DNA from: a virus
Virus record (IMG/VR): IMGVR_UViG_3300027659_000031
Location: 1 to 64,000 of that record
Direction: 5' to 3' (one strand)
Length of the DNA: 64,000 nt
Shown here: piece by piece, positions 7,700-15,590 of the stretch
Position numbering within the stretch: the first letter of the stretch is position 1
Layout of the letters: each line of letters begins with the position of its first letter
Translations under genes and position numbers: made by a program
Notes under the pieces: model-generated
What the model was told of the DNA's origin: nothing
Seen by the model: only the letters and a program-made list of their open reading frames with translations
Database searches by the model: none

Positions 7700-8313
7700 T
7701 TCTTTTACTTAACGTGTCATTAAAGGCGCAAGACACAGTTAGATTGTTCCATAAAGAGTATACTACAGTATTCTCTAAATCTTTAAAGTATCCTGTATTG
7801 GTTGAGTGGTGGATAACAAAAGCTAAAGTAACATGTCTTAATCCTATACCAAGAAAAGATAAGTTTGCACCAGATCCATTTCTAAGCGCTGAAACTGATT
7901 TAACTGTAGATTATAAGGGATCAGGAACTGATCGCGGCCACATGGCCCCAGCAGCCGATAACCAATGTTCTGGTCCTACTGCTATGATTGAGTGTTTTTA
8001 CTTTTCTAATATGGCACCTCAATATCATAGTTTAAACGCAGGAGATTGGAAAACTTTAGAAATGTTAACTAGAGATCTAGCTTCAAAACAAGATTCTATT
8101 AAAGTATGGTGCGGATCTATAGGAGAGGCAAAAAAGATAGGTAGAGTTTCTGTTCCTACAAAGTGTTGGAAGATTATATACATAAATAAGACAAATGAGT
8201 GGATGGCATATATATTTAATAATGATCAATCTAAACCAGATGGTTTAGCAAATAATAAAGTAGCAGTTCAAGATATAGAGAAGTTAACCAATTTAAAATT
8301 TAAAATAAAGTAA
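7669..8313 (+). CDS. Secreted DNA/RNA non-specific endonuclease (NucA/NUC1 family)
   Basis: 214 residues. N-terminal Sec signal (LKVLSSVAVVLLLNVSLKAQ) with cleavage likely after Ala20. The catalytic DRGH motif is at 88-91, in GTDRGHMAPAADN, with His91 as general base. Asn114 in YFSNMAPQ and Asn123 in HSLNAGDWKTLE fit the Mg-binding helix of the beta-beta-alpha-metal family. It should act in the periplasm or outside the cell, degrading incoming or released DNA. A secreted nuclease next to thioredoxin and lysis genes suggests superinfection exclusion, nucleotide salvage or lysate DNA clearance. Confidence 0.88.
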   Translation: MLKVLSSVAVVLLLNVSLKAQDTVRLFHKEYTTVFSKSLKYPVLVEWWITKAKVTCLNPIPRKDKFAPDPFLSAETDLTVDYKGSGTDRGHMAPAADNQCSGPTAMIECFYFSNMAPQYHSLNAGDWKTLEMLTRDLASKQDSIKVWCGSIGEAKKIGRVSVPTKCWKIIYINKTNEWMAYIFNNDQSKPDGLANNKVAVQDIEKLTNLKFKIK

Positions 8314-8314
8314 T

Positions 8315-8572
8315 ATGAGTGTTTTGTATTTTTCAGCAGACTGGTGCGGTCCTTGTAAATCATTTAAACCCGTAGTACAGCAAGTTTCACAAGAGTTAGG
8401 AGTCTCTGTTAATTATGTTAATGTAGACTATGACGCATCACTAACCCAGAAGTACTCTATTACGTCTGTACCTACTATTATGGTAACAAATTATCAAGGA
8501 GACGAAGTATATAGAAAGTCTGGAGTCTTGTCAAGAGAGCAATTAATTAGCATGTTTAATCAATTTAAGTAA
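8315..8572 (+). CDS. Thioredoxin
   Basis: 85 residues, short for thioredoxin (about 105) because the N-terminal strand and helix are trimmed. Active site WCGPC at 10-14 and the cis-Pro motif SVPTIMV are intact. Cytoplasmic, no signal. It could support ribonucleotide reductase or serve as a polymerase processivity factor as in T7. It starts 1 bp after the nuclease stop. Confidence 0.9.
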   Translation: MSVLYFSADWCGPCKSFKPVVQQVSQELGVSVNYVNVDYDASLTQKYSITSVPTIMVTNYQGDEVYRKSGVLSREQLISMFNQFK

Positions 8573-8659: not shown

Positions 8660-9259
8660 ATGGACATTAGCAAACTTAAAGGTCACATTCCTGAAGCTGT
8701 ACTAGCACAGATCCCTGATACTGCTGCTAAATTTGAAATTAACACGCCACTTCGTTTAGCTCACTTTTTGGCTCAATGTGGCCATGAATCTGGCGGGTTT
8801 AAACTTGTTCAAGAGAATTTAAACTACGGAGCAAAAGGCCTTTTAGGTATATTCAAGAAGTATTTTCCAACCGAAGAAAAAGCTAAGTTGTATGAAAGAA
8901 AACCTGAGAAGATTGCAAACCTCGTTTATGGATCAAGGATGGGGAACGGACCTGAACCTTCAGGAGATGGTTATAAATTTCGTGGCCGTGGTTATATTCA
9001 ATTAACCGGTAAAGACAACTATACTGCATTTGGCAAAGCTATCAATGAAGATATTGCCACCAATCCAGATAAAGTAGCTACTAACTATGCTTTATTATCT
9101 GCGGCATGGTTTTTCCATAAGAATGGCTTACATAAAATAGCTGATGGAGGTGCAACTGACGCAGTAGTAACTTCTGTAACTAAGCGTGTTAACGGAGGAA
9201 CTATTGGCCTTTCTGATCGTATCAAACACTTTAAAGAGTATTACGATTTATTAAAGTAA
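8660..9259 (+). CDS. Endolysin, GH19 (chitinase-like lysozyme)
   Basis: 199 residues, a single GH19 domain without signal peptide or binding domain. AHFLAQCGHESGGF places the catalytic Glu at residue 43, with a second Glu at 52 (QENLNY). The downstream FRGRGYIQLTGKDNY is the family's substrate-cleft signature. It would cut the glycan backbone of peptidoglycan at lysis, so cytoplasmic expression and release by a holin are expected. The next gene encodes a holin candidate. Confidence 0.92.
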   Translation: MDISKLKGHIPEAVLAQIPDTAAKFEINTPLRLAHFLAQCGHESGGFKLVQENLNYGAKGLLGIFKKYFPTEEKAKLYERKPEKIANLVYGSRMGNGPEPSGDGYKFRGRGYIQLTGKDNYTAFGKAINEDIATNPDKVATNYALLSAAWFFHKNGLHKIADGGATDAVVTSVTKRVNGGTIGLSDRIKHFKEYYDLLK

Positions 9260-9305: not shown

Positions 9306-9560
9306 ATGAAAAATTTTTTTAAAGCATTATTCAACGACAACAACACTATTAACGAAAAAAGTTTTATTGGGTTTTGTGCCTTCTTAATGATGGTAGGCTT
9401 TGCAGTAGCAGATATTATTACTGGGAGTCTTGGTAAGGAACTCGTTGTTCAAGAGTTTATCTTTAATGCGTTTATGGTATTGACTTTAGGATCTTTTGGT
9501 ATTGCTTCCGTAGATAAGTGGATCAATAAAAGCAAAGGAGAATCTAATGGAGAACTCTAA
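9306..9560 (+). CDS. Holin candidate (two-TM membrane protein)
   Basis: 84 residues from ATG 9306 (an in-frame ATG at 9297 is possible). Two hydrophobic helices (GFCAFLMMVGFAVADIIT and FIFNAFMVLTLGSFGIASV) are separated by a short GK-containing loop. The C-terminus is basic (DKWINKSKGE). Size, topology and position right after the endolysin fit a small phage holin. It overlaps the next gene by 14 bp. Confidence 0.65.
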   Translation: MKNFFKALFNDNNTINEKSFIGFCAFLMMVGFAVADIITGSLGKELVVQEFIFNAFMVLTLGSFGIASVDKWINKSKGESNGEL

Positions 9561-9816
9561 AACTACTATGTTTATATCCAATAATTGGAGTATCATAGTA
9601 GGAATTCTTACAGTGGCGTTTGCGGCCGGTGGAATCTTTAGTGAGTTCAGACTAATGCACAAAGAAATAGAAGAACTCAAACGAGACACTGATAGCAAAA
9701 TTAATCAGATCATAGACGAACGTCAACGTAAGAGCGATTGGTTAGAGGAACAAGAACAACGAATTGATGATTTAGAAGAGTGGAAAGCATACGAAGACGG
9801 AAGACAGTCTAAATAA
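9547..9816 (+). CDS. Membrane-anchored coiled-coil protein, lysis-block
   Basis: 89 residues. One membrane helix (WSIIVGILTVAFAAGGIF) then an uninterrupted charged heptad-type helix to the end. The topology resembles i-spanins or holin regulators. No lipobox-type outer-membrane partner follows. Ends 5 bp before the PAS gene. Confidence 0.6.
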   Translation: MENSKTTMFISNNWSIIVGILTVAFAAGGIFSEFRLMHKEIEELKRDTDSKINQIIDERQRKSDWLEEQEQRIDDLEEWKAYEDGRQSK

Positions 9817-9821
9817 AAAAA

Positions 9822-10931
9822 ATGAAAAACCTATCCAAAGAAGAATTATTAAGTAGACTTGAGGCAATTAACAGAAGCAATGCAATTATATATTTTGACC
9901 TAAAAGGAAATATTTTAGGTGTTAATGTTGTTTTTCTAAAAGCACTGGGATATGGTGAGAAGGATCATGAAGAAATCATCGGTAAACACCATAGTATTTT
10001 TGTATGTGAAGATTATGCAAGATCATTGGAGTATGAAAAGTTTTGGGATATATTAAGGAGTGGTAAATTCTATCAAGGAGAATTTGAGAGAAGGAAAAAA
10101 GATGGTAGTCTTATCAACTTACAAGCTACCTATAATCCTATCTATGATGAGAGCGGCACGATTACTAAAGTAATGAAAGTTGCTACTGACATTACTGAGA
10201 TTGTTAATAGTAAAAAACAAATAGATGCGATTAACAAAAGTACTGCAACTATTAGTTTTGATATTAATGGTTTTATTTTAGACGCTAATTCTATATTCTT
10301 AGAAACTATGGGGTATAAGGCTAACGAAAAAAGCCAAGTAATAGGAAAGCATCATAGTATTTTTGTAACGTATGAGTATTCAAAATCAGATGAGTATAGT
10401 AAGTTTTGGAAATCTTTAAAAAGCGGTAAGTTTTTTGACGGGATATTTGAAAGAAAAAAAGTGGATGGTTCTATTATTTATTTACAAGCCACCTACAATC
10501 CTGTCTTTGATAGTAAAGGAAACGTCACAAATGTAATCAAAATTGCAACTGACGTTACTGAAGCCGTTATTAGCAAAAATAAGATAGATGCTCTTTCTAA
10601 AGATCTACAGATTGAGTTAGATAAATCACAGCAATTAAAAAACTCAATTGAAATAGAGAAGAACGCTGCATTAAATGATTTAGATGTGTTGATGAAGAAA
10701 AGTCAATCTGAATTAATCAAGACAATCGTATTAGTTGCTTTAGCAGTAATTATAGGTGTGGGTCTTGTAACAACTATGCTATATTGGATGGCTATGGTAA
10801 CTGGTAAAGACACACAGATTATCGGCTCAACTTGGTCAAATATGTTTAGCGTATTGCTTACAAATGCATTTTCAATAGTAGGTACAATTATGGGTATTAA
10901 ATACGCTACACAAGATGGTAGTAAAAAATAA
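9822..10931 (+). CDS. Tandem PAS protein with C-terminal two-TM holin-like domain
   Basis: 369 residues. Two similar PAS domains (about 10-125 and 130-245) each have the GKHHSIFV element, a GxFxxGxFERxxxDGS segment and YNP(I/V).D..G. They resemble the sensory PAS repeats of Aer or histidine kinases. A coiled-coil linker (245-290) leads to two hydrophobic helices (IVLVALAVIIGVGLVTTMLY and FSVLLTNAFSIVGTIMGI) with a GKD loop and a basic end. No kinase, HAMP, chemoreceptor or GGDEF output follows. The membrane part has the same TM-GK loop-TM-basic tail layout as the holin candidate at 9306. I infer a sensor coupled to a membrane pore or pore regulator. Confidence 0.7.
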   Translation: MKNLSKEELLSRLEAINRSNAIIYFDLKGNILGVNVVFLKALGYGEKDHEEIIGKHHSIFVCEDYARSLEYEKFWDILRSGKFYQGEFERRKKDGSLINLQATYNPIYDESGTITKVMKVATDITEIVNSKKQIDAINKSTATISFDINGFILDANSIFLETMGYKANEKSQVIGKHHSIFVTYEYSKSDEYSKFWKSLKSGKFFDGIFERKKVDGSIIYLQATYNPVFDSKGNVTNVIKIATDVTEAVISKNKIDALSKDLQIELDKSQQLKNSIEIEKNAALNDLDVLMKKSQSELIKTIVLVALAVIIGVGLVTTMLYWMAMVTGKDTQIIGSTWSNMFSVLLTNAFSIVGTIMGIKYATQDGSKK

Positions 10932-11009: not shown

Positions 11010-13262
11010 ATGAGAGTTTTTCTCTTTTTTTTATTAGCTTGCATTTCTTTACAAACTTTATCTCAAGACACTTTATTCAACAAAAAATTAGACAACATTA
11101 CAGTAACATCTGTTTCTAAAAAAGAAACTAATGTAGCAGTAGTGAATCTAATTAGAAATAGTTCAGTAGTTTCAGACGGACTTTCTATAGAGTTTATTAA
11201 AAAAACACCAGATCGTACAGTAGGCGATGCTCTAAAAAGGATAAATGGTGTTACTATTCAAAATGATAAGTTTGTATTAGTTCGTGGATTGTCTGATAGA
11301 TATAATCTAGCTCTACTAAACAAAACTTATTTACCTTCTACAGAACCAGATAGAAAAGCGTTCTCATTTGATATCATTCCTTCAGCTTTAATTGATAACA
11401 TTATTATATCAAAATCTGCAGCAGCAAATTTACCTGGAGATTTTGCGGGTGGTATTGTACAAATAACAACTAAAGATGTATCAAGTAATTTTTTCTCTTT
11501 AGGCGCAGGATTAAGTTATGGAACGGTGTCTACATTCCAAAAATTCAAGTTGGTGGAATATACGCAGTTTCCGCCCAACTTCCCATCTACATATCGATTC
11601 CGTATAGGAAGCAACGGAGATAGAAGAGCATATAGCAAACTAATAAGTTCACCTAAAATGCAAACAACTAATTCTGCGCCTAATACTAACAATTCATTTT
11701 CTTTCGGATTAAAAAAGAACAAGTGGAATTTAATCGTAAGCTCTACTTATAGGACTTCTTATTTAATAAATTATATAGATAGACAAGACTATCAGTCTTC
11801 AACAGAATTAGCTTACAAATATAAAGATACCTCGTATTCTAATACTCAGTTATTAAATGGATTAGCTAATATAACTTACATAGGCAAAAACAAATATAGT
11901 CTAAAGACAATAGTTAATTATCAAATAGAGAACTCTTATTTAACTCGTAATGGAGAGAACTACGATAACGTTCAGACAGTAAGAAGCAATTCATCTAATC
12001 ATATTAATAAGCTCAATGTTAATTCTCAATTTGACGGTAAGATCAAAACATTAGACTTCAATTTAGGATATAATCTAATGCTAAGAGATCAACCTGATTA
12101 TAGAGTGAATCCTATTACAAAATCATTAGGTACAAATGAAGCATACTCTATAGCATGGAGAGATACGTATCGTTTTTGGAGTGTTATGAACGAAAATAGT
12201 TTTAACGCAAGTGCTAATAAGTCTGTAGATAAATTTAAATTTGGCGGTAGCTATCTTAAAAAACTAAGAAGTTTTCAAGCTAGGATCTTTAGATATGAAT
12301 CTTTAGACATGCTAAACGAGATCACAAATAATACAGATAAGTACAAAGCTGATTTTGATTTGGGATCTGGCTATGCAATGTATGATAACGACTTTGGAAA
12401 GTGGAAAGTAAACACGGGATTAAGGACTGAATACAATATATTTAGTGTCAATACTTCAGATTTTAGTGGACAAAAAGTAGACGTGAATAGAGAGTATCTC
12501 GATCTTCTACCTTCAATTAATTTATCTTATAATTTAGATAAGACAAAGTTTAGATTCTCTGCAAGTAAAACTGTATCTAGAGCAGAGTTTAGAGAAATAG
12601 CCAACTTTGCATATTATGATTTTGTTCGTAATGCACAGATATTAGGAAACCCTAAATTAGAAAAGTCAAACATCTACAACTTAGATCTTAAATATGAATA
12701 CTATCCTAAATCAGGTGAAAATATATCAATTGGAGTATTCGGTAAGAACTTTATCAAACCTATAGAACAGATAGTAGCTGATGGTTCAGTTCCATCAAAC
12801 CTACTACTAACTTTCTTAAACCCTAAATCTGCAAATGTTTACGGTATAGAGTTAGAAGTTCGTAAGAAAATAAATGCTTGGTTAGATGCATATGCTAACG
12901 CAGCTCTAACTAATTCAGAGGTAAAAGTAAATGGAATAAAGAGACAGTTGCAAGGCCAATCTAATTACGTTGTTAATAGCGGATTAAACTTTCATAAAAA
13001 CAATAACACATTTAACATTACATACAATAGAGTAGGAGATAGGATATCTGCAGTAGGATTTCAAGGATACTCAGATATCTTTGAAAACTCAAGAGATGTA
13101 TTTGATGTAGTGTATTTAAGAAAAATAAAAAAAGGAGAGATTAAACTATCGGTAAGCGACATCTTAGCTCAACCGTCAGTATACTATCAAAAAACAAAAG
13201 GCAATTTAATTAAAACAAACAACGAACAAACAATTTCATTATCAATCAATTTTAATTTATGA
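11010..13262 (+). CDS. TonB-dependent outer-membrane receptor
   Basis: 750 residues. Signal peptide (FLFFLLACISLQTLS), a possible TonB box near ITVTS, then a plug domain at about 45-155 with DRTVGDALKRINGVTIQ, VRGLSDRYN, SALIDNIIISKSAAANLPGD and AGGIVQITTKD. The rest is alternating beta-strand sequence of a 22-strand barrel ending ISLSINFNL. It lacks the N-terminal CarboxypepD_reg domain usual in Bacteroidetes SusC proteins. It would import a scarce ligand across the host outer membrane using TonB energy, or block another phage's receptor. It overlaps the next gene by 4 bp (ATGA). Such a gene is exceptional on a phage. Confidence 0.92.
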   Translation: MRVFLFFLLACISLQTLSQDTLFNKKLDNITVTSVSKKETNVAVVNLIRNSSVVSDGLSIEFIKKTPDRTVGDALKRINGVTIQNDKFVLVRGLSDRYNLALLNKTYLPSTEPDRKAFSFDIIPSALIDNIIISKSAAANLPGDFAGGIVQITTKDVSSNFFSLGAGLSYGTVSTFQKFKLVEYTQFPPNFPSTYRFRIGSNGDRRAYSKLISSPKMQTTNSAPNTNNSFSFGLKKNKWNLIVSSTYRTSYLINYIDRQDYQSSTELAYKYKDTSYSNTQLLNGLANITYIGKNKYSLKTIVNYQIENSYLTRNGENYDNVQTVRSNSSNHINKLNVNSQFDGKIKTLDFNLGYNLMLRDQPDYRVNPITKSLGTNEAYSIAWRDTYRFWSVMNENSFNASANKSVDKFKFGGSYLKKLRSFQARIFRYESLDMLNEITNNTDKYKADFDLGSGYAMYDNDFGKWKVNTGLRTEYNIFSVNTSDFSGQKVDVNREYLDLLPSINLSYNLDKTKFRFSASKTVSRAEFREIANFAYYDFVRNAQILGNPKLEKSNIYNLDLKYEYYPKSGENISIGVFGKNFIKPIEQIVADGSVPSNLLLTFLNPKSANVYGIELEVRKKINAWLDAYANAALTNSEVKVNGIKRQLQGQSNYVVNSGLNFHKNNNTFNITYNRVGDRISAVGFQGYSDIFENSRDVFDVVYLRKIKKGEIKLSVSDILAQPSVYYQKTKGNLIKTNNEQTISLSINFNL

Positions 13263-14461
13263 AAAAATTATTAAGCTTAATTATTATCATTGGAATCTTT
13301 AGTTGCACAAAACAATTAGGAGGAGAAGATGGACCTATCAATGTTCCTTCAACTACTACTATATCTGGAAATATCAACACTACTACAACTTTAACATCTG
13401 ATAAAGTATGGACACTTAAAGGATATGTTTATGTAACTGATGGCGCTAAATTAATCATTCAACCTGGTACTACTATTATAAGTGATATTGCAGAAAAAGG
13501 CGCTTTGTGTATTGAAAGAGGCGCACAAATTATTGCAGAAGGCACAGCACTAAAACCGATTATATTCACCTCAGGTAAAAACATCGGCGAGAGGTCTCCT
13601 GGTGACTGGGGTGGTATAGTTATTTTAGGTAGAGCAAAGACTAATAGATCTTCTGAACCAACAATAGAAGGTGGAATTGGTCGTTCTTATGGCGGTATTA
13701 TCGACACAGACAATAGTGGAGTACTAAAGTATGTTCGCATTGAATATGCAGGCATTGCTGCATTACCTAACTCAGAGATTAATGCTCTAACTTTAGGTGG
13801 TGTGGGTAGCGGTACTGTAATTGAAAATGTACAGACTATCTATGCTAACGACGATGCATTTGAATTTTTCGGTGGAACAGTAAATGCTAAAAACTTATAT
13901 GCATTTGCTACAGCAGACGATGACTATGATTTTGATTTTGGTTACACCGGAACTATAACTAATAGTGTATCAAAGCGTGATCCTCAATTTGTAGATAATG
14001 GTGACGCTGGTAATGGTGTAGAATGCGACAATGATGGTACTGGATCACCAGCACAACCATTTACTCATCCTAAGCTAATTGGGATGGTTCTGGTAGGATC
14101 TTTTGATGCAAGTTCATTATCCAATCACAACTTAGGATTGAGGTGGAGGAGAGCTACCCAATTCACAATTACAAACTCTAAGATACTAGGTTATATGAAA
14201 GGTGGTTTTAGCATTGAATCAAATGAAACTGCTCAAGCATATAAAGATGGTATTAGTAAGTTTGAAAATAACGAAGTACAATCTTATGATCCCCTACAAA
14301 ATTTTAGGTCTACATCTACAGTAATAAATGTAGCGGATATGAAGACAAAAGCACTAGGTCAAGGTAATAAAGAAGTTTCTTACACTAAGAACGAAATGGA
14401 AGTGCTATCAAAACCATCATGGATTAATGGTTGGACTAAATTTCCTGCTAAAGGACAGTAA
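13259..14461 (+). CDS. Surface lipoprotein partner of the TonB receptor
   Basis: 400 residues. Lipoprotein signal with lipobox IFSC (Cys16). The mature part has repeated short beta-strand turns (LIIQPGTTI, ALCIERGAQIIAEGTALKP, IEGGIGRSYGG, LKYVRIEYAGI) like a right-handed beta-helix. Asp-rich segments (DADDDYDFDFGY-like, about 215-235) and DWGGIVILGRA follow. Proteins of this type are encoded beside TonB receptors in Bacteroidetes. It overlaps the receptor gene by 4 bp, so they are co-translated and likely work together at the cell surface. Ligand unknown. Confidence 0.75.
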   Translation: MKKLLSLIIIIGIFSCTKQLGGEDGPINVPSTTTISGNINTTTTLTSDKVWTLKGYVYVTDGAKLIIQPGTTIISDIAEKGALCIERGAQIIAEGTALKPIIFTSGKNIGERSPGDWGGIVILGRAKTNRSSEPTIEGGIGRSYGGIIDTDNSGVLKYVRIEYAGIAALPNSEINALTLGGVGSGTVIENVQTIYANDDAFEFFGGTVNAKNLYAFATADDDYDFDFGYTGTITNSVSKRDPQFVDNGDAGNGVECDNDGTGSPAQPFTHPKLIGMVLVGSFDASSLSNHNLGLRWRRATQFTITNSKILGYMKGGFSIESNETAQAYKDGISKFENNEVQSYDPLQNFRSTSTVINVADMKTKALGQGNKEVSYTKNEMEVLSKPSWINGWTKFPAKGQ

Positions 14462-15178: not shown

Positions 15179-15563
15179 GGGCCTGACTGGAATTGATCCG
15201 GTTGTTGAGATTGCACCACATGCAGGCGTTTGGTAGAGTCGCCTTAGAAAACTGCAAACAATAACTGACGAAATGTCAACAATGACCTTCGATGACCTTA
15301 TGGCCTTCGTTGGTGCCGATTACGCTGTAGCAGCCTAGTCCGCAAACGGGTGAGTAACCTAGGAACAGAACTACTCCGAGCGCTCACGATCGACTCGTTA
15401 AATAAGGACTGTGGATTAGTTTTCTTGATAGTCATAAAATCAAGTGGTGGAAACGACCATAACGGTCCGCCCCTACTGATCAAAAGAAATTTAGATCTAA
15501 GCATGTGAAACGTTGGTGTTATTGTCGCTATCGGAGACGAGAGTTCGAATCTCTCCAGGTCCA
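15179..15563 (+). ncRNA. ssrA: Transfer-messenger RNA (tmRNA)
   Basis: The 5' end GGGCCTGACTGGAATTGA and 3' end close a 7-bp acceptor stem (GGGCCTG with CAGGTCC at 15556-15562). The T-arm is GAGAG-TTCGAAT-CTCTC. The discriminator is A15563 and CCA is not encoded. GGCG/CGCC with GTTT/AAAC near 15226-15251 fits pseudoknot 1. A tag frame ends VGADYAVAA then TAG at about 15336-15338. The stop sits in a CCTAG...CTAGG stem-loop as in other tmRNAs. The -AVAA end and the GADY part resemble Bacteroidetes tags such as GENNYALAA. The resume codon is unresolved. It would rescue stalled ribosomes and tag products for host proteolysis. Confidence 0.9.
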
Positions 15564-15590
15564 CTAATTTTTAATCAAACCCACCCTAAA

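Follow-up and report, generated by a model that had tools for sequence, protein, structure and literature searches.

The lysis region

The window spans 64,000 nucleotides of a viral record that is 67 kb long. Its lysis genes are tightly packed on the plus strand. A GH19-type endolysin gene (8660..9259; PHROG 181; Pfam GH19 at 7.5e-9, phrog_181 at 2.6e-71) is followed by a gene for a protein with two transmembrane (TM) helices (9306..9560), which matches no family and can be called a holin candidate only from its position and topology, and then by a gene for a protein with one TM helix and a coiled coil (9547..9816), weakly indicated to be an Rz-like inner-membrane spanin (phrog_739, E=0.004). 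The latter two genes overlap, and the PAS gene begins 5 bp past the end of the second (9822..10931, plus strand, ATG start); its 369-residue product is designated P0001. The first-pass annotation had placed this gene at the end of the lysis block. The gene order bears that out, and the linkage to endolysins holds across many phages and three endolysin families (see below). A search for the T4 late-promoter motif, TATAAATA, finds it at chance frequency, with none upstream of the cassette.

The surroundings of the cassette can be described briefly. Just upstream of the lysis genes lies a gene for a secreted-looking DNA/RNA non-specific endonuclease (7669-8572; PF01223, 1.5e-40), with a thioredoxin gene adjoining. 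Downstream of the PAS gene, an outer-membrane protein resembling TonB-dependent receptors (11010-13262; Plug 2.8e-8, OMP_b-brl_3 1.4e-26) is followed by a lipoprotein-like gene (13259-14461); both are present, at 74-75% identity, in the relative L003, and receptor masking or superinfection exclusion is a possible role for the pair. A tmRNA gene (15179-15564) specifies the tag DEMSTMTFDDLMAFVGADYAVAA, and four tRNA genes lie elsewhere in the window. Positions 19492-44119 hold a long run of glycosyltransferase- and nucleotide-sugar-like ORFs, within which sequences resembling a TPP-dependent enzyme (38442), an acetaldehyde dehydrogenase (40229) and a 4-hydroxy-2-oxovalerate aldolase (41077) are recognizable by eye.

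Domain structure of P0001

The first-pass annotation had read the gene product as two PAS domains joined by a coiled coil to a two-helix membrane module, and Pfam and AlphaFold2 agree. PAS domain 1 (residues 20-124; 9879..10193), of the BdlA/NifL/MmoS-like kind by Pfam, PDB sequence matches and AlphaFold2, is joined by a helical linker to PAS domain 2 (residues 142-244; 10245..10553), which is identified by Pfam and AlphaFold2 and has PDB sequence matches to Aer and MmoS. Pfam (PAS_3 at 2e-26 and PAS_9 at 1.2e-23, two stretches each), AlphaFold2 and Foldseek all place a PAS fold over both. In the AlphaFold2 model (mean pLDDT 78), residues 246-327 (10557..10802) form one unbroken helix that begins as the coiled coil and ends as TM1 (about 301-327, also by hydropathy); a short loop leads to TM2 (332-363). 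The topology indicated by the model and by hydropathy is N-in, with two TM helices, a short loop and a basic tail. The near-invariant segment 331-363 (10812..10910) includes TM2, TQIIGSTWSNMFSVLLTNAFSIVGTIMGIKYAT, which carries Ser, Thr, Asn and Gly on one face. Profile searches of P0001 find no kinase, GGDEF, chemoreceptor or other output or catalytic domain, so that the claim of a sensor lacking kinase and chemoreceptor outputs also stands.

Conservation of the membrane module

P0001 is a real protein under selection, judging by its 169 related viral stretches (the best 80 loci align almost entirely end-to-end, at 78-100% identity) and by the predominance of synonymous over amino-acid change in their DNA. 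The selection falls unevenly on the two membrane helices. Among 18 non-redundant homologues, codon differences in the TM2 segment (330-363) are 1.2% non-synonymous versus 39.5% synonymous; the corresponding values for TM1 are 24.5% and 36.2%. Mean column identity over 215 proteins is 0.93 for TM2 versus 0.69 for TM1. The Ser/Thr/Asn/Gly residues of TM2 are confined to one helical face (R=0.63, p=0.001), and those of TM1 are not (p=0.83); the hydrophobic moment of TM2 is not significant, and only the distribution of these small and polar residues is. The pattern would fit specific helix packing, oligomerization or the lining of a pore. The module is evidently more than a passive anchor.

In Pfam, PHROG, NCBIfam and PADLOC, the only family match to the C-terminal module is a weak one, to PHROG 1544, of unknown function (E 6e-4). 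The sensorless form of the module, described below, shares 53% identity with an uncharacterized phage protein, UniProt A0A6J5PRT3. PADLOC defence models match neither P0001, its module, nor the associated kinase and receiver, and with the sensorless form they yield coiled-coil matches at E>0.03 only. Because the module belongs to no recognized family, its action on the membrane is read from its conservation and topology.

Forms of the module and their linkage to endolysins

Scans of IMG/VR find relatives of the membrane module in 551 viral stretches. The 214 distinct uncut module proteins, drawn from 429 loci, comprise 86 with two PAS domains (PAS-PAS), 27 with a single PAS domain, one with a GAF domain (L333) and 100 that are sensorless, the last being proteins of about 180-229 residues with a small helical head and a long helix. 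Of 20 large contigs, 12 encode a capsid protein of the T4 Gp23 type, and these 12 include carriers of the PAS-PAS, GAF and sensorless forms up to 322 kb in length. The relatives all come from metagenomic contigs. Among 50,697 phage records there is no cultured phage with a P0001-type protein and nothing for the module, the receiver or the sensorless protein; the matches there are of chemoreceptor PAS domains only, in an 8.2 kb fecal "phage" and in wastewater contigs with MCP domains. One pattern scan of cellular genomes finds no module (its seven matches are PAS-only), nor does a search of 396 Bacteroidota genomes that was run without a positive control.

Linkage to lysis genes is a property of the family at large. 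Among 128 well-flanked loci (at least 2.5 kb on both sides of the module gene), 101 have a GH19, GH24 or M15 endolysin within 3.5 kb of the module, mostly within 500 bp; by form, these are 41 of 48 PAS-PAS, 9 of 10 single-PAS and 51 of 70 sensorless loci. Relatives of the 9306 protein lie within the same distance in 31 of the 48 PAS-PAS and 9 of the 10 single-PAS loci. GH19 genes thin out with distance: their density per side is 0.197 in the first 500 bp and 0.006 per kb at 4-5 kb. M15 and GH24 show the same trend, and the density per side of endolysins as a whole drops more than 10-fold beyond 3 kb. The GH19 enzymes, GH24 lysozymes and M15 peptidases are mutually non-homologous and their gene orders are shuffled; plain inherited synteny is therefore a poor explanation for their company. 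There are exceptions: two PAS-PAS genes (L057:6001-7116 and L138:3149-4264) lie among genes of DNA metabolism rather than lysis genes, and about one quarter of the sensorless loci have no recognized endolysin within 3.5 kb. A 100-residue protein with one TM helix and a coiled coil recurs near the module gene (L241:9087-9389, L414:3362-3664); the L241 copy has a weak match to SLATT_6 that lies below the cut-off (E 7e-4).

The two-component operon and the probable origin of P0001 by fusion

In the sensorless arrangement the module gene stands third in an operon, after a histidine kinase and a stand-alone receiver, and very often an endolysin gene is next. The kinase has two PAS domains, with or without GAF, and a HATPase_c domain (3e-16); the receiver matches Response_reg (4e-8), and its stop overlaps the start of the module gene by a median of 4 bp. 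The kinase H, N, G1 and G2 motifs and the Asp, Ser and Lys of the receiver are kept in more than 93%. Fused sensor and kinase are complementary in their distribution. A receiver lies near the module in 69 of 70 sensorless versus 0 of 58 PAS-fused loci (Fisher 4e-36, ignoring common descent) and a kinase in 67 of 70 versus 0 of 58 (Fisher 3e-33, with the same disregard of descent). On whole contigs, a receiver is present in 19 of 19 sensorless records and in 0 of 12 sensor-fused ones, a set that includes the GAF form and the window; none is found in the 67-kb record of the window, which may be a fragment. This complementarity is plain in the sequences, although it rests on few independent evolutionary events.

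One locus, L414, connects the two arrangements. Residues 1-257 of its kinase (4141-5565) match residues 1-256 of P0001 at 53% identity and with the same N-terminus; residues 75-192 of its module protein (6004-6588) match residues 252-369 at 66% identity. The receiver gene (5573-6004) lies between the two, a GH19 endolysin gene (6940-7749) comes after, and two downstream genes appear, as read by eye, to be homologous to the window genes at 6017 and 6577. The boundary of the fusion falls at residues 252-260 of P0001. Since the N-terminal half of the L414 kinase and the C-terminal half of its module protein together make P0001, it seems that a two-component system has here been condensed into a single protein, a one-component sensor-effector. 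By the Rosetta-stone argument, the fusion also points to the module protein as what the receiver is likely to act on.

The module tree, which has few columns, an unsettled bootstrap and a midpoint root, is compatible with this history. One misaligned row (L053) aside, the PAS-fused forms constitute a single clade (100/99) that lies within the sensorless forms, and L414 is the sister of that clade (99/96). The GAF fusion branches elsewhere, making at least two sensor fusions likely; the GAF domain of L333 is 60% identical to that of one cassette kinase. Single-PAS and PAS-PAS forms have interconverted repeatedly (about ten label changes in the tree). The PAS tree has too few columns to tell which kinase PAS domain gave rise to the fused ones, and its L220 "kinase" row is a frameshifted, mis-clustered PAS-PAS protein.

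The signal

The best sequence matches of PAS1 in the PDB are MmoS (3ewk, 1.3e-9) and NifL (2gj3, 6e-9). The closest solved structures to P0001 are MmoS, NifL and Aer by sequence, and MmoS, DosP, NifL and FixL by fold (Foldseek, MmoS at 7.5e-17). The Trp of FAD-binding PAS domains is aligned at W75 and W196 and is invariant, and the usual Asn of the NRRK motif is Arg (R90, R211). Cellular relatives of these PAS domains include MCP-like proteins, and the PAS domains of BdlA and McpS are predicted FAD binders (PMC8694187). The PAS domains of P0001 probably read redox state, oxygen or a small molecule.

A model for P0001 and its alternatives

Domain anatomy, conservation, linkage to lysis genes, complementarity of sensor and kinase, and fusion are established by sequence. 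Beyond the description of a conserved, lysis-linked, sensor-driven membrane module, everything is interpretation; that the receiver acts on the module protein and that the module alters the timing of lysis are things that we infer. With that understood, P0001 is probably a one-component, sensor-driven controller of host lysis derived from a phage two-component system, and its most likely function would be to set the time of lysis, at the inner membrane, in response to a signal. The two cytoplasmic PAS domains would sense a signal and twist or shift the continuous helix 246-327; the movement would change the packing of the TM hairpin in the inner membrane, and the hairpin, assembling through the invariant polar-faced TM2, would alter the moment at which the membrane is breached. 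The module would work together with the endolysin and, in many of the phages, with a holin encoded separately. In the presumed ancestor, the same PAS pair would have driven a histidine kinase, with the stand-alone receiver and the membrane-module protein encoded as separate genes; on fusion, the kinase core, the receiver and the head of the module would have been lost and the sensor joined directly to the output. The suggestion in the first-pass annotation that a PAS protein could govern when lysis occurs is upheld as regards a sensor free of kinase and chemoreceptor outputs and its place in the lysis cassette, but not as regards the identity of its output as a holin.

What the hairpin does in the membrane can be construed in more than one way: it may make holes itself, or it may set off or hold back another holin, so that lysis would come earlier or later. 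It is possible, and we put this forward tentatively, that the PAS/GAF kinase and receiver, or in the lineage of the window the fused PAS domains, gate a new 2-TM family in T4-like phages whose members themselves form a small, pinholin-like pore or depolarize the membrane, so triggering the phage's holin and endolysin in response to redox or energy state.

That P0001 is itself the main holin, a class-II-like 2-TM protein whose hole formation is gated by the fused PAS domains, is unlikely. The topology set out above is appropriate, the invariant polar face of TM2 suggests self-assembly or pore lining, and at many sensorless loci an endolysin gene adjoins the module gene on whole contigs of 95-294 kb that have no homologue of the 9306 protein. 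The first-pass annotation had rested its case for a holin on a layout (TM, GK loop, TM, basic tail) shared with the 9306 protein. The layouts do resemble one another, but the loop varies in the module family (GK, NQ, DQ, GQ, QK and others) and the two are not homologous: comparison of residues 285-369 with the 9306 protein gives an hhalign probability of 0.5%, or 1.2% with diverse profiles. No holin family in Pfam, PHROG or NCBIfam matches P0001 or its C-terminal part, and the argument from resemblance to 9306 fails. Comparison with Phage_holin_10 likewise finds no homology. Recognized holins of other families (PF23987, PF05105) sit beside the module in some relatives (Phage_holin_10 at L219:6066-6233, Phage_holin_4_1 in L233 and L154), as the 9306 protein does in many loci. 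The module thus often coexists with another holin candidate, and for the module itself the name "holin" is not established by homology. Set against the usual description of holins as small proteins with 1-3 TM helices and an endolysin neighbour, P0001 has two TM helices and the neighbour, but is 369 residues long with a large sensor. Moreover, holins evolve fast, whereas TM2 of the module is nearly frozen. Of the PAS-gated holin, what survives is a sensory member of the lysis cassette; what does not is the holin by homology, and the partnership with a kinase and receiver, which only the relatives reveal, had no part in that earlier reading.

A role outside lysis seems quite improbable. The module would then serve membrane-anchored signalling, such as superinfection exclusion or the redirection of host taxis or redox responses, and its place in the late region would be due to chance or to expression timing. 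The PAS domains most resemble those of cellular chemoreceptors, NifL and Aer, two lineages are found away from lysis regions, and linkage to 9306 and endolysin is incomplete in the sensorless forms, all of which would suit such a role. However, adjacency to three unrelated endolysin families, kept in shuffled gene orders, argues against passive hitchhiking, and P0001 has no chemoreceptor output domain. PAS proteins are common and often membrane-anchored, and no catalytic output is visible in P0001, but that it is an ordinary PAS sensor on a generic, inactive 2-TM anchor, with the output carried by an unseen partner, is very hard to credit when the supposed anchor is where the family is most conserved and is what remains if the sensor is missing or exchanged.

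Sensor-driven control of lysis, the reading preferred here, bears on the timing of lysis, the decision that matters most to a lytic phage. To our knowledge, the few known environmental inputs to lysis work by way of antiholins or transcription. Comparison of the genomes points instead to a dedicated sensory pathway, with a histidine kinase and receiver of the phage's own among its parts, that is tied to the lysis cassette in hundreds of large phages known from uncultured material, and suggests that T4-like phages with the module may read the state of the cell before choosing the moment of lysis. The natural series from two-component to one-component wiring makes the proposal directly testable with respect to the signal, the direction of its effect and the role of the hairpin. 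It would provide a new class of membrane output for PAS, GAF and two-component signalling, and might connect viral lysis in the environment with the state of oxygen or redox.

Relation to known systems

The open-access literature yields nothing on a PAS holin, on a phage two-component system for lysis or on PAS sensors in phages. Because it describes no such system, and because the module has no described family, an operon of kinase, receiver and membrane effector devoted to the lysis cassette, like its fused PAS/GAF counterpart, is rated new, its function being predicted. PHROG 1544 and A0A6J5PRT3 are module-like in sequence; no function, sensor or two-component link is described for either.

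On the sensory side, the redox and oxygen PAS sensors MmoS, NifL, Aer and DosP provide the best PDB matches of P0001 (3ewk, 2gj3, 8dik and DosP), but P0001 lacks the kinase, transcription or c-di-GMP outputs of these proteins. The soluble chemoreceptors BdlA and McpS have the same PAS subtype, in tandem as in P0001; their MCP signalling domain is replaced by the phage 2-TM module. On the membrane side, class II or pinholin-type holins (S21, Phage_holin_10, Phage_holin_4_1) share with the module two TM helices, an N-in/C-in topology and an endolysin neighbour. Unlike them, the module has a large cytoplasmic sensor and is extremely conserved, and no sequence relationship to them is found.

T4 provides a functional parallel. 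Superinfection is sensed there through periplasmic RI, which binds the holin T; RI and RIII are antiholins. (The T holin family, Phage_holin_T (PF11031), has no match in 21 contigs, in a search run without a positive control.) Environmental control of lysis has also been reported in Vibrio phage ICP1 (PMC7182436). T4 lysis inhibition and the role proposed here for the module have in common that the time of lysis would be tuned to a signal via a small membrane protein. They differ in the sensor, which is periplasmic RI in T4 and would be cytoplasmic PAS or GAF domains, or a two-component system, in the phages that carry the module.
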